From Moraxellaceae bacterium (GTDB lineage Bacteria; Pseudomonadota; Gammaproteobacteria; Pseudomonadales; UBA3067): a stretch of DNA of 10,644 bases. Location: positions 6,868-17,511 of the forward strand of contig NVTH01000060.1 of assembly GCA_002401525.1 (NCBI GenBank), read 5' to 3'. Shown here piece after piece: positions 4,109 to 8,151 of the stretch (positions within the stretch are counted from its first letter, which is position 1; every line of letters starts with the position of its first letter). The notes below the pieces were generated by a model, which saw nothing but the letters and a program-made list of their open reading frames with translations, had not been told where the DNA came from and ran no database searches. Both the position numbers and the translations under genes were made by a program.

Positions 4109-4420
4109 ATGACCAAACCAAAAGCAGTCAAAAAAGAGACTCACTATGGCCTGGTGCGCTCAGCCAAAGAACTCGGTCAACTGGTGCGCGCCCACCGTAA
4201 AAACCGCCAATTAACACTGGAGACTGTTTCCGGGTTAAGCAATTTAAGTCCGCGCTTTCTCTCTGAATTTGAGCGCGGTAAGGAGACCGCCGAGATCGGC
4301 AAAGTATTAAAAGCACTGCGAACGCTTGGGCTTGAAGTCATCATTCAACCCCGTGGTGGGAGATTAGGAAACGCAGCAGCCTCGACCTTCAAGGATGGAG
4401 AAGGGCAAACGAATGATTGA
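4109..4420 (+). CDS. hipB: HipB-like Xre-family antitoxin and repressor
   Basis: This 103-residue DNA-binding protein has a Cro/C1-type helix-turn-helix at residues 19-78. LTLETVSGLSN (35-45) forms the positioning helix and SPRFLSEFERGK (47-58) the recognition helix, followed by IGKVLKALRTLGLEVIIQ, the usual end of HipB proteins. In the family, HipB dimers neutralise the HipA kinase and repress the hipBA operon. The gene overlaps hipA by 8 nt (4413-4420), typical of a coupled toxin-antitoxin pair. Three CGTACG palindromes upstream are probable operators. The ATG at 4109 lacks a clear Shine-Dalgarno, and its TGA neighbour ends a five-codon ORF beginning at 4094. The gene looks intact although its toxin partner is broken, so it may persist as an orphan antitoxin or regulator. 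Confidence 0.85.
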   Translation: MTKPKAVKKETHYGLVRSAKELGQLVRAHRKNRQLTLETVSGLSNLSPRFLSEFERGKETAEIGKVLKALRTLGLEVIIQPRGGRLGNAAASTFKDGEGQTND

Positions 4421-5106
4421 CCTGGATTCACTTAATGTCTGGAACGATCAGCGCTTAGTGGGACATTTGTGGCGCAACCCAATCGGTGCGATCGGCTTTA
4501 GTTATGCCCCAGAATGGCTGTCACGAGATGGTTTTAGGGTTTCACATACCTTGCCATGCGGTAGCCACGACTTTACCCCTGAAGAGGGGATTGCGCATCG
4601 TTTCTTTGCCAACCTACTGCCAGAGGGTGGTGTCCGCGAACAAATTGTCCGCGATCTAAAAATATCAAACACTGACTTTAACTTGTTACGAGCCATTGGT
4701 GGTGAGTGCGCTGGCGCTTTATCAATCCTGCCGGTAGAGCAACAACCGCCGCCACGCTAAAAACCTGTCTCTACTTTATTTGGCCAATGGCGAGATACGA
4801 TTGACACCCTTCTATGACCTAGTGTGCACCCGCGCCATTGAACGCATCGACGATCACCTCGCTTTTGCTGTCGGCGACGAGAGAAACCCCAGCGTGGTCA
4901 CCCGAAAAAACTGGGAATCCCTCGCCTTACAGTGCGACATTCGTCCGCAATGCCTACTCAATCAGATTGATGACATAGCGACTCGGTTACTGAACAATCT
5001 CGCGCTCGCACGGACTACCTTTGAATCTCAATACGGCCCCTATCCGGCGCTACAGCGTATTGAAAAAATCGTTTCCAAACAGTGCCAACGAGCAAAAGAA
5101 ATTTAA
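4413..5106 (+). pseudogene. hipA: hipA-like toxin kinase gene with internal deletion and frameshift
   Basis: HipA is a Ser/Thr kinase that in Escherichia coli inactivates glutamyl-tRNA synthetase. Here the N-terminal part (4413-4760, also readable from 4395) is normal up to GALSILPVEQQPPP. It carries the family signatures YAPEWLS, FFANLLPEG and AIGGECAGALS. The sequence then jumps near 4747-4752, in another frame, to HAKNLSLLY ... RLTPFYDLVCT and on to a TAA at 5104-5106. The catalytic loop normally reads D-x-H-A-K-N; its aspartate and everything before it, including the ATP-binding segment, are gone, roughly 190 residues by comparison with a ~430-residue family length. The ATG at 4413 is preferred because GGAGAAGG (4397-4404) lies 8 nt upstream and the gene then overlaps hipB. 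Neither half can be an active kinase. The second half has no ribosome site of its own. Confidence 0.85.
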
Positions 5107-5280: not shown

Positions 5281-6426
5281 TCATTGTTTCCTCAGACGTT
5301 GCACCGCCGGTTTAGCGGTCGTTAACTCATAACGCGTAGTTCTACCACCACCGGATAACGGCATGATAATCCCCTTGGCAACCAAGTCAGAAAGATCCCG
5401 GCTGGCTGTTCGATTGGGGCACTTGGTTATAGCTTCATATTTCCGGGTCGTTATTCCGCCTTCAAAGCCCTTTCGACCTTCAGCAAACACTCGAGAGACC
5501 ATCTTGGCCTGCCGGTTATTCAGTTGATCGCCATAAGCTTCGTAGAAACGCGTCTTGCCCAATACAAAGTCCACCTCTTCCTTAGCAATTTCCTGCGCAT
5601 TGGTTATTGTGTCTGCGAAATAATCCAGCCAAACGTTAACATCCAGGCTTCCACGACTCGCTTTCTCCAGCTGCAGATAATAGGATTTTTTGTCGCTCTC
5701 TATCGCCGTGGCAAGACAAGCGGTGGTCGGATAGCCGAGAGTCTGCGAAAGCGCATGATCAGCAATCGCCCTGCCGACTCGGCCATTCCCGTCATCAAAG
5801 GGGTGAATTACTTCGAACCAGAGGTGTGCAATACCCGCTCTGGCAATATCGGGTAGCTTCTTATTTCCACTCAAAGGGTTGATCTCGTTATACCAGGCGA
5901 TGAACCTTGCCATTTCTTCAGGCACCTGAGTCGCTGGCGGGGCCTCATAGTGAACCTTTTCCCGGCCGTAAGGCCCGCTGACAATTTGCATTGGCGACGG
6001 ATCGTTGCGGTATGCGCCGCGTAGAATTGAGGTGTAGCGCTGCTCCGGGACAGCCATTGATTGCCACTTGCCCAGCAATTCATTCGTCAGGGATGATTGC
6101 CAGTTTTTGCGCACGTCCACCAGCAGCGAAGCTGCCCCAGCAGCTTTCTGGTCTGAGTTGTCCGGCAGCGCATCCGATGTTATCAAAGAGAGTAACGATG
6201 ACCTGACAGATTCCCTATCCAGATACTCTCCCTCAATAGCGTTGGTTTTGATGGCTTCTGAAAGCATCAAATCGATCATGGCATCCTCTTGTGACGCCAT
6301 TGGCAGCGCCTCAAAGCGGCCTGCCAAACGCTCTGAGTTGATGCGAAATCCAAGTTCCCGGTCATTGAGCCCGCCATTATCAAAGCGAAAATCAGGCCAG
6401 TCGGGCTGTTGCCATATCCATTTCAT
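5281..6426 (-). CDS. fic: Fic-domain protein adenylyltransferase (class II type) with C-terminal winged helix
   Basis: The 381-residue protein begins MKWIWQQPDWPDF, the start of the DUF4172-type N-terminal domain. TNAIEG (61-66) fits the [S/T]xxxE[G/N] inhibitory helix that precedes the fold in class II Fic proteins; E65 would block the ATP gamma-phosphate. The flap region is around 146-164. The active-site motif HPFDDGNGRVGR (208-219) is complete, with catalytic H208, so the enzyme should transfer AMP from ATP to a protein hydroxyl and can autoinhibit. Residues ~303-370 (RQAKMVSRVF ... TRKYEAITKCPNRTASRDLSDLVAKG) look like a winged helix, as in many stand-alone Fic proteins. A GTG at 6450 would add 8 residues, but the ATG at 6426 matches the family start and sits 6 nt after a perfect TATAAT. 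There is no Shine-Dalgarno at either. The gene follows guaA on the same strand but has its own promoter. The target protein is unknown. Confidence 0.9.
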   Translation of the reverse strand: MKWIWQQPDWPDFRFDNGGLNDRELGFRINSERLAGRFEALPMASQEDAMIDLMLSEAIKTNAIEGEYLDRESVRSSLLSLITSDALPDNSDQKAAGAASLLVDVRKNWQSSLTNELLGKWQSMAVPEQRYTSILRGAYRNDPSPMQIVSGPYGREKVHYEAPPATQVPEEMARFIAWYNEINPLSGNKKLPDIARAGIAHLWFEVIHPFDDGNGRVGRAIADHALSQTLGYPTTACLATAIESDKKSYYLQLEKASRGSLDVNVWLDYFADTITNAQEIAKEEVDFVLGKTRFYEAYGDQLNNRQAKMVSRVFAEGRKGFEGGITTRKYEAITKCPNRTASRDLSDLVAKGIIMPLSGGGRTTRYELTTAKPAVQRLRKQ

Positions 6427-6455
6427 GGCGCGATTATAGCGCTTATTCACGCCAT
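6425..6455. promoter_or_regulatory. Palindromic box O1 of the fic promoter
   Basis: This 31-bp box has arms ATGGCGCGATTA and TATTCACGCCAT, an imperfect dyad (10 of 12 arm positions pair). It covers the -10 box and spacer exactly and touches the ATG. It matches box O2 at about 24 of 31 positions. Confidence 0.65.
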
Positions 6456-6461
6456 ATTACA
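6426..6461 (-). promoter_or_regulatory. fic promoter predicted to give a leaderless mRNA
   Basis: On the minus strand TATAAT (6438 to 6433) is a perfect -10 box. Six bases separate it from the ATG at 6426, so transcription should begin at or within a base or two of the start codon. The -35 position 17 bp upstream (6461 to 6456) reads TGTAAT, a weak match, which would leave room for control by a bound protein. Confidence 0.6.
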
Positions 6462-6469
6462 GGCTGTTA

Positions 6470-6500
6470 ATGGCGTGATTATGACCCGTAATCACGCCAC
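6470..6500. promoter_or_regulatory. Palindromic box O2 of the fic promoter
   Basis: This is a second 31-bp box with perfect 11-bp arms, TGGCGTGATTA (6471-6481) and TAATCACGCCA (6489-6499), around 7 bp. Its start is 45 bp from that of O1, the same length and orientation. The DNA-binding-like C terminus of Fic makes autoregulation a natural guess. Confidence 0.7.
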
Positions 6501-6686
6501 ATCGGCTCGAGAAAAGAAACCTAAACGCCGTCAATCACCATGCCGGCATCAACTCCCCTCTCATGGTATCCACGTTTTCTGCCTTGCTACGCGCAATAAA
6601 CACCCTAAAAAACACCATTGATGATGCATACTTATTGTCGGTCCTGCTTATTTTATTAGTGTATTTTCAATAGGTTACAGGTACAG

Positions 6687-8151
6687 CTACTCCCACTCAA
6701 TCGTGGCAGGAGGCTTGGAAGAAATGTCGTAGGTCACGCGAGAGATTCCAGAAATTTCATTAATAATCCGGTTCAACACCACCTCTAAAAACTCATACGG
6801 TAAATGCGCCCAACGAGCAGTCATAAAATCGATGGTTTCCACGGCACGCAATGACACCACAAATTCATAGCGCCGCGCGTAATAAATCTGCGTACTGTTT
6901 ATTCACTTCGCCTAAAATTCTCACCCCTAATCCTGGGCCAGGGAAAGGATGGCGATAGACCATGTCGTAAGGCAAACCTAACTCCATGCCCATCTTACGC
7001 ACTTCATCTTTAAATAATTCACGCAGCGGCTCCACCAACTTTAATTTCATATCTTCAGGCAAGCCACCGACATTATGATGGGACTTGATCAAGTGGGCTT
7101 TGCCGGTTTTGGAACCTGCGGATTCAATCACGTCGGGGTAGATCGTGCCTTGAGCCAGCCATTTCACATTGTCTAATTTAGCCGCTTCTTGCTCAAAGAT
7201 TTCGATGAATTTATTGCCAATAATTTTTCGTTTTTTCTCAGGGTCAGAAACGCCTTTTAAGGCATTAAGAAACAAATCTTCAGCGTTGACGCGAATCACT
7301 TTAATGCCCACGGAATCCGCAAACATTTTCATCACTTGATCGCCTTCATTGAGACGCAACAAGCCATTATCCACAAACACGCAGGTGAGTTGATCACCAA
7401 TGGCTTTGTGCAACAACATCGCCACGACCGACGAATCTACTCCGCCAGACAAACCTAAAATTACCGGCTCTTTCCCCACTTGCTCGGCCACGCGCTGCAC
7501 GGCATCGTCCACAATATTGCTCACATTCCAAAGCTTTTCGCAGCCAGCAATGTCCACGACAAAACGCTCAACAATCTCAAGGCCTTGCTTGGTATGGGTT
7601 ACTTCAGGATGAAACTGCACCCCATAAAATTGCCGCTGCTCATCGGCCATGGCCGCAACAGGTGCGCTGTCAGTGGAGGCGATGATTTCAAACCCGGAAG
7701 GTACCTGAGTGACTTTATCGCCGTGACTCATCCAGACATCCAGTTCAGACCCGCCGCTTTCGATGGATTGATCTGCAATGCCTTTCAATAAAGCCGAGGT
7801 ATTTTGATGCACGACTTTGGCATAGCCAAACTCACACACATCGGAGCTTTGTACTTCGCCGCCCAACTGATTCGCCATCGCCTGCATACCGTAACAAATC
7901 CCTAGTACAGGACAGCCTAAGTCAAAAATAATGCCCGGCACGGTGGGCGTATCGTCTCCAAGCACGGTCTCGGGGCCACCGGATAAAATCACCGCTTTCG
8001 GCTTGAAGCTCTCAATATGGCTAAGCTCAACATCGTATGGATAAATTTCACAATACACGCCAATCTCGCGAACACGGCGGGCGATCAGCTGGGTGTATTG
8101 AGAACCGAAATCTAACACGAGTATTCGATGGGAATGGAGATCCTGGGACAT
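6687..8151 (-). pseudogene. guaA: GMP synthetase gene with internal deletion and frameshift
   Basis: GuaA makes GMP from XMP, ATP and glutamine. The ATG at 8151 is chosen because GAGAAG lies 6 nt upstream and the protein then starts like its orthologues; a GTG at 8184 is spurious. The glutaminase domain is complete (GICYG with C86; H181 and E183). The ATP pyrophosphatase loop SGGVDSS (235-241) and [12 protein letters not shown] (400-411) are present. After KQYADLLRA the frame runs into TGA at 6865-6867. In another frame the sequence resumes as [15 protein letters not shown] and continues to the canonical C terminus KPPATIEWE with TAG at 6687-6689. Compared with Escherichia coli GuaA, about 38 residues of the XMP-binding/dimerisation domain are missing, an inferred deletion near 113 bp. 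The truncated 428-residue product should be inactive. The alternatives are an assembly or sequencing error, or a second guaA elsewhere. Confidence 0.9.

Follow-up and report, generated by a model that had tools for sequence, protein, structure and literature searches.

What do two closely similar palindromes do in the promoter of a gene for a Fic protein? Fic enzymes attach adenosine monophosphate (AMP) to other proteins, and the gene considered here, fic, lies on the minus strand of a 10,644-nucleotide stretch of a Moraxellaceae bacterium genome (the window; positions 6,868 to 17,511 of contig NVTH01000060.1, GenBank assembly GCA_002401525.1), with the two palindromes, O1 and O2, in its promoter region. 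Judging from sequence, O1 and O2 are very likely the operators of a direct negative feedback by which Fic acts on its own gene. Autorepression of this kind had been proposed in an earlier note on this DNA, and we judge it supported, given that the dyad is conserved among related loci and that its letters follow the recognition helix and the wing of the C-terminal winged helix of Fic.

Re-measurement of the two boxes gave the values claimed in the earlier note: the segments at 6425-6455 and 6470-6500 are identical at 24 of 31 positions, their starts lie 45 bp apart, and O2 has perfect 11-bp arms, which flank 7 bp. In O1, 9 of 11 arm pairs match. The paired 31-bp matches were thus confirmed, while the conserved dyad unit had to be trimmed to 29 bp with TG...CA ends; on the minus (coding) strand it reads TGGCGTGAATAAGCGCTATAATCGCGCCA in O1 and TGGCGTGATTACGGGTCATAATCACGCCA in O2. 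The same two boxes were also found as a repeat family (D1; 36 nt, 78% identity). Among 2000 dinucleotide shuffles of positions 6350-6599, a perfect palindrome with 11-bp arms (loop 3-20) appeared in 2, and a 31-nt direct repeat matching in at least 24 of 31 positions in none; the repeated palindrome pair exceeds chance expectation.

O1 covers about -28 to +1 relative to the predicted start and includes a TATAAT hexamer. The hexamer at the -35 position (TGTAAT, 6461-6456) proved a poor match. A strict sigma-70 scan of 6380-6720 did not have the fic promoter among its listed sites, and an alternative start from the open reading frame (ORF) finder, GTG at 6450, falls within O1. Among 32 orthologues with the window's layout, where the A of the start codon is also the last base of the proximal dyad, a TAnnnT hexamer stands at -12 in 30, the TG of an extended -10 element precedes it in 22 (the window itself has no such TG), and a Shine-Dalgarno-like motif was seen in 0 of 32. 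The fic mRNA is probably leaderless, since the -10 box falls within O1 and the A of ATG is the last base of that dyad, and since the orthologues combine TAnnnT at -12 with no Shine-Dalgarno-like motif.

An alignment of dyads upstream of orthologous genes, proposed in the earlier note as a check, showed the dyad to be conserved. Close orthologues were taken from 77 loci of the genome collection, with 66 upstream regions inspected, and genes with the DUF4172 domain were drawn from 86 of 398 genomes of the window's phylum, 71 of 369 of its class, 33 of 296 of the phylum of a Chitinophaga locus (L070) and 48 of 288 of the phylum of a Spartobacteria locus (L066). The first set comprised 182 matches, 176 without duplicate proteins, of which 175 were scored in an open search and 174 had at least 135 bases upstream. 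Under a strict rule (a TG..CA-anchored palindrome with at least 9 of 11 pairs) the 174 loci gave a span of 29 in 109, a span of 28 in 16 and no more than 5 loci at any other span between 23 and 45; the shuffle expectation at span 29 was 0.33 per shuffle set. Under a looser rule (at least 8 pairs, one anchor) a 29-bp dyad was present upstream in 150 of 174 loci and a 28-bp dyad only in 10 more, compared with 2 of 174 equal-length coding segments taken within the genes. The open search, with length and ends left free, yielded a score of at least 9 in 102 of 175 upstream regions, as against 1 shuffle and 2 in-gene segments out of 175 each. The length of the dyad is fixed at 29 bp while its letters vary between clades, the variants including TGGCGTGAATA, TGCGGAGAATA, TGCGGTGAATA, TGAGCCGAATA, TGAGGCGAATA, TGAGTTATAGA, TGTTACGAATA and TGATTAATAAA, among others.

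The helix letters of the window's Fic, NRTASR, occur in 45 of the 174 loci, and 44 of these carry a 29-bp dyad (the exception, L029, fell below threshold), with two such dyads in 42 of the 44. In 32 of these 44 loci the start-codon A is the last base of the proximal dyad; in 11 the dyad is placed 74 bp, and in 1 locus 89 bp, further upstream. Of 157 promoters in the wider set, 78 have the same overlap with this A. Ten loci with the 74-bp layout (L004, L006, L008, L010, L011, L017, L018, L025, L033 and L054) have a mini-ORF of 25 codons (MTKWQDRQFARPKAARQGAAHGCAA-like) between O1 and fic, which begins at the ATG ending O1 and whose stop codon overlaps the fic start. Its differences by codon position, 43/73/133 over all pairs, have a protein-coding look, and it may encode a leader peptide or a small Fic partner.

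Sites come mostly in pairs. The spacing set of 157 promoters, in each of which the start was located and a dyad of 28 or 29 bp qualified, had two sites in 105, three in 8, four in 1 and one in 33, and 10 gave no 29-bp site by the similarity rule. Start-to-start distances were 33/34, 44/45 or 53-56 bp in 118 of 124 cases, successive values thus differing by about 11 bp, and more than one value was found inside each of three helix classes (KATATR, RATxTR and xDTAxR), which suggests that two dimers may sit on one face of the DNA; for the 44/45-bp spacing, 42 of 76 cases are from the NRTASR class, many being close orthologues. Upstream of fic in L070, four consecutive 29-bp dyads follow one another in 33-bp steps, three of them identical.

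The sites are nearly confined to fic. With all scans pooled, 35 of 37 sites lie at fic. The window's own genome (74% complete) has two of its three sites there, the third, with 3 mismatches, lying in the coding part of an aldehyde dehydrogenase gene (L197). Six genomes of the TGAGCC operator class have exactly two sites each within 3 mismatches, all 12 at fic, and in seven genomes of the TGCGG class all 12 sites within 2 mismatches are at fic. Of 114 genomes of the window's class, 5 match the window-class pattern within 2 mismatches, and all five, the window's own genome among them, carry DUF4172 genes, with 9 of their 10 sites at fic. The tenth (G774:C26:29534-29562; L223 2035-2063) is a window-class dyad with 2 mismatches that does not lie at a DUF4172 gene; a tblastn search with the window's Fic found no match in the 4.1 kb around it, and the site may be due to chance. 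A wider regulon was considered and rejected, since all 24 sites in 13 other genomes (up to 3 or up to 2 mismatches, as above) lie at fic and the own genome, at 74% completeness not an exhaustive sample, adds the one in a coding sequence. With sites almost only at fic, the regulator apparently serves its own gene alone at the stringencies used. The window as a whole holds one further perfect palindrome with 11-bp arms (loop 3-20), at 2282-2310 inside an ORF (1822-2820, no Pfam match); it has 13-bp arms and a 3-bp loop, and its halves, CGGAGAATA, resemble the TGCGG class with a spacing 2 bp wider.

The protein belongs by domain definition to the DUF4172-Fic-winged helix group. Pfam scored DUF4172 at 81.5 bits (cut-off 25) and Fic at 58.6 bits (cut-off 24), and at E 0.001 returned no separate match for the C-terminal winged helix, which is seen in an AlphaFold2 model built on a 25-sequence alignment (predicted local distance difference test, pLDDT, 87.3; predicted template modelling score, pTM, 0.83) and by a whole-length match to a solved structure (Protein Data Bank, PDB, 8CIL); the earlier note had mentioned such a domain in many stand-alone Fic proteins. 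The numbering of the model starts two residues before Met, so that its recognition helix is 340-352 and its wing about 356-370; elsewhere residues are counted from Met. The protein combines a catalytic motif of the HPFx(D/E)GNGRxGR type with an N-terminal inhibitory motif ending in EG, and H210, P211, F212, D214, G215, N216, R218, G220 and R221 (alignment numbering) are invariant across the 25 sequences. The inhibitory-helix motif is that of class II Fic proteins (PMC10628234).

To relate operator to protein, we used 135 loci with a dyad score of at least 9 and a complete helix, or the 92 left after proteins at least 85% identical were dropped. In these 92, helix residue 2 pairs with base 3 of the dyad as A with A (39/39), D with C (36/36), R with G (11/12), M with T (2/2) and P with A (3/3), a rule that holds in 91 of the 92 proteins from which it was derived, and the wing column occupied by G361 in the window pairs with base 7, a wing G accompanying base G in 64 of 72 and a wing L, R, N or A accompanying base A in 19.5 of 20. 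For all six-residue protein windows we computed and ranked the partial correlation with operator distance, core protein distance being removed: the top five overlap the recognition helix (0.54 to 0.46) and the sixth and seventh lie in the wing (0.38 and 0.37), against an all-window mean of 0.02 (standard deviation 0.13). In a partial Mantel test, 0 of 2000 permutations reached the observed coupling, and by corrected mutual information R339 with base 3 ranks first of about 3,500 pairs. The coupled residues map onto the recognition helix and wing of the AlphaFold2 model. As the operator letters track the winged helix of the adjoining gene's own product, they support Fic itself as the probable binder and autorepression as its probable role.

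The recognition rules were fixed in writing before a held-out set was examined (108 loci, 101 complete, with 85 less than 85% identical to one another and to the first set, and a dyad scored in 67). A 29-bp dyad was found in 67 of the 85, and the strict rule gave a span of 29 in 55 and no more than 3 loci at any other span between 24 and 39. The rules predicted base 3 correctly in 61.5 of the 62 rows having a rule, five rows with S, I or E at helix residue 2 lying outside the rule set, and base 7 in 59 of 66 (G 47/53; L or R 12/12; A 0/1). The sole held-out row with R at helix residue 2, L221, comes from a genome also surfaced by the operator-pattern scan; the family search lists L221 too. Independent contrasts on a tree of 159 core sequences were concordant or neutral and none was opposite, with about 2.0, 3.3, 2.8, 5.0, 1.9 and 2.0 concordant contrasts for six residue-base pairs, two of which (helix residue 1/base 4 and helix residue 5/base 4) were chosen post hoc.

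Table 1. Positions in the window of fic, its two dyads and the sequence elements discussed.
Feature	Position	Strand	Remark
O1, promoter-proximal 29-bp dyad	6426..6454	-	overlaps the -10 box and the initial A of ATG
O2, distal 29-bp dyad	6471..6499	-	perfect 11-bp arms; 45 bp from O1
-10 box TATAAT	6433..6438	-	within O1, six bases 5' of ATG
Likely start codon ATG	6424..6426	-	A at 6426 is the last base of O1
fic gene, 381 aa (DUF4172, Fic domain, C-terminal winged helix)	5281..6426	-	
TNAIEG, inhibitory-helix motif, residues 61-66	6229..6246	-	
HPFDDGNGRVGR, Fic catalytic motif, residues 208-219	5770..5805	-	
Recognition helix of winged helix, residues 338-350	5377..5415	-	N338 and R339 couple to operator
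Wing of winged helix, residues 354-368	5323..5367	-	G361 couples to operator base 7

In type II toxin-antitoxin systems the dose of the toxin is held down via palindromic promoter operators, with the DNA-binding domain usually on the antitoxin, whereas in the window the enzyme and the presumed repressor are one polypeptide. CccR of Yersinia pseudotuberculosis, a secreted toxin, is likewise a single polypeptide with a Fic domain and a C-terminal helix-turn-helix, and it binds a palindrome near the -35/-10 region of its own promoter and represses that promoter, with a footprint on the inverted repeat, a rise in expression when the repeat is mutated and a need for the dimer (PMC9755527). The window, too, has palindromes in the promoter of its own fic, where repression would act; the geometry differs, CccR having a single 46-nt footprint, AGATAATCAT-N26-ATGATAATCT (10-26-10), and the window two phased copies of a 29-bp dyad (11-7-11), with O1 reaching the start codon. 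In the printed sequence of the CccR site, the 10-bp repeats can be read as outward-facing half-sites starting with TGA; on that reading its 46 nt might hold the inner half of each of two dyads.

Among solved structures, both sequence and fold place CbFic2 of Coxiella burnetii (PDB 8CIL; phmmer E 6.9e-78; Foldseek 37-38% identity, TM 0.82-0.89) nearest to the window's Fic, with which it shares the DUF4172-Fic-winged helix order. DNA binding induces dimerisation of CbFic2 and favours deAMPylation; the protein was studied with random DNA and host histones, its authors defer the specific binding sequence to future work, and the available portion of their report describes no operator (PMC10628234). 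SoFic, or Sofic (PDB 3EQX and others), is a class II Fic like the window's protein (PMC12249575). The PADLOC model for the SoFic anti-phage system matched the window's Fic at E 1.3e-36 over residues 52-368 of the query, in a table that gives no curated cut-off, and Foldseek identity to SoFic structures is about 17-18%; since the NCBIfam SoFic equivalog (NF046030) scored 38.5 bits against a cut-off of 550, we did not file the protein as SoFic. DNA binding by SoFic is not demonstrated, according to the CbFic2 paper (PMC10628234). CccR and CbFic2 were the only close precedents among the matches listed in a literature search that covered few subscription papers and no preprints. The earlier note's statement that no operator of this form was described for this Fic group stands in part: we found no report for the group in this search, while palindrome autorepression is known, with other geometry, from CccR. 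The search likewise gave no report of phased 29-bp operators in tandem, of their occurrence in three phyla, of a code in helix and wing or of an operator overlapping a probably leaderless start, and the family-wide operator and its code appear to be new.

Several observations weigh against autorepression by Fic. Neither a 28- nor a 29-bp dyad is present in 14 of the 174 loci under the looser rule, 18 of the 85 held-out loci have no 29-bp dyad (4 with a 28-bp dyad, 14 without either), and the window's -35 box is weak. The second and third pairs by corrected mutual information (G328 and Q232, in that analysis' numbering) lie outside helix and wing, as do the high-ranking single columns K384 and R79 (likewise in their own analysis' numbering), and uncorrected mutual information sums peak outside the winged helix, the raw measure being uninformative because of phylogeny. 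The rule from K1-A2 to C at base 5 was right in just 8 of 11 held-out rows. The independent switches are few (about 2 to 5 per pair) and no single test reaches p 0.05, and the held-out loci come from the same clades as the first set, so that they show predictive power, not independence; shared ancestry alone would predict much of the held-out operators. These last points lend themselves to the alternative that fic is controlled by some other protein that occupies the dyads, co-variation with the winged helix of Fic merely recording common descent, for operator classes largely track protein clades, and the correlation between core distance by itself and operator distance is r 0.60. We nevertheless regard it as improbable: helix and wing outrank all other six-residue windows once core distance is removed, chemically sensible pairs recur (D with C, R with G), and with sites near-exclusive to fic no second gene is expected to be tied to the boxes in so many genomes.

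Binding by Fic could also activate the gene, or serve chiefly to control the enzyme. The activity of CbFic2 shifts on binding even random DNA (PMC10628234), and O2, upstream of the promoter, is in a possible activator position; O1, by contrast, covers the -10 box together with the start codon, both here and in 32 of the 44 loci of the window's clade, a place where a bound protein would block polymerase, and CccR represses (PMC9755527), which together make activation, or a role chiefly in enzyme control, very improbable. That the dyads are an RNA hairpin or the terminator of guaA, which lies upstream on the same strand, might be suggested by palindromes able to form stems. This reading was rejected as almost certainly wrong, for 6380-6720 contains no terminator-like site, O1 precedes the predicted transcript start with O2 further upstream, and neither a fixed 29-bp length nor letters tied to a protein helix would be expected of RNA stems.

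Under autorepression, a Fic dimer would contact a single 29-bp dyad through its pair of C-terminal winged helices, the base-reading parts lying about 20 bp, or two helical turns, apart. Two dimers may occupy O1 and O2, 45 bp apart; occupancy of O1 would block polymerase at the -10 box and start site and turn fic transcription off, O2 would assist through in-phase cooperation, and Fic would thereby limit its own dose. Binding by Fic, repression by that binding and cooperation of the two dimers are what we infer. A more speculative step comes from CbFic2: because its DNA-bound dimer favours deAMPylation, operator-bound Fic may, if this is transferable, be in the AMPylation-off (deAMPylating) state, and the operator may restrain the enzyme too.

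Two other loci of the window stand out. guaA at 6690-6900 on the minus strand reads in two frames (…YADLLRAAL-stop, then …PPATIEWE-stop), a frameshift that is perhaps a sequence error in the draft genome. At 4109-5106 on the plus strand a HipB-like regulator comes before two HipA fragments, an N-terminal one and a weak C-terminal one, and this hipBA locus looks broken.

Class II Fic enzymes are abundant and the mechanism of their restraint is mostly unknown, according to the CccR authors (PMC9755527). For a whole Fic subfamily the findings offer a testable answer, a putative own-promoter operator of fixed 29-bp geometry with a predictive recognition code, and with it a candidate for the kind of specific DNA that the CbFic2 authors deferred to later studies (PMC10628234). 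An AMP-transfer enzyme would thus be linked to transcriptional control without a partner antitoxin. It is tempting, if rather doubtful, to see in these loci one-protein toxin/repressor modules in three phyla, with the phased 29-bp dyads of the operator as an antitoxin that both silences the gene and holds a non-AMPylating dimer, and a helix-and-wing code that drifts and so confines the switch of each lineage to its own promoter. Were that so, loss or titration of the operator-bound dimer would release the gene and the enzyme together.
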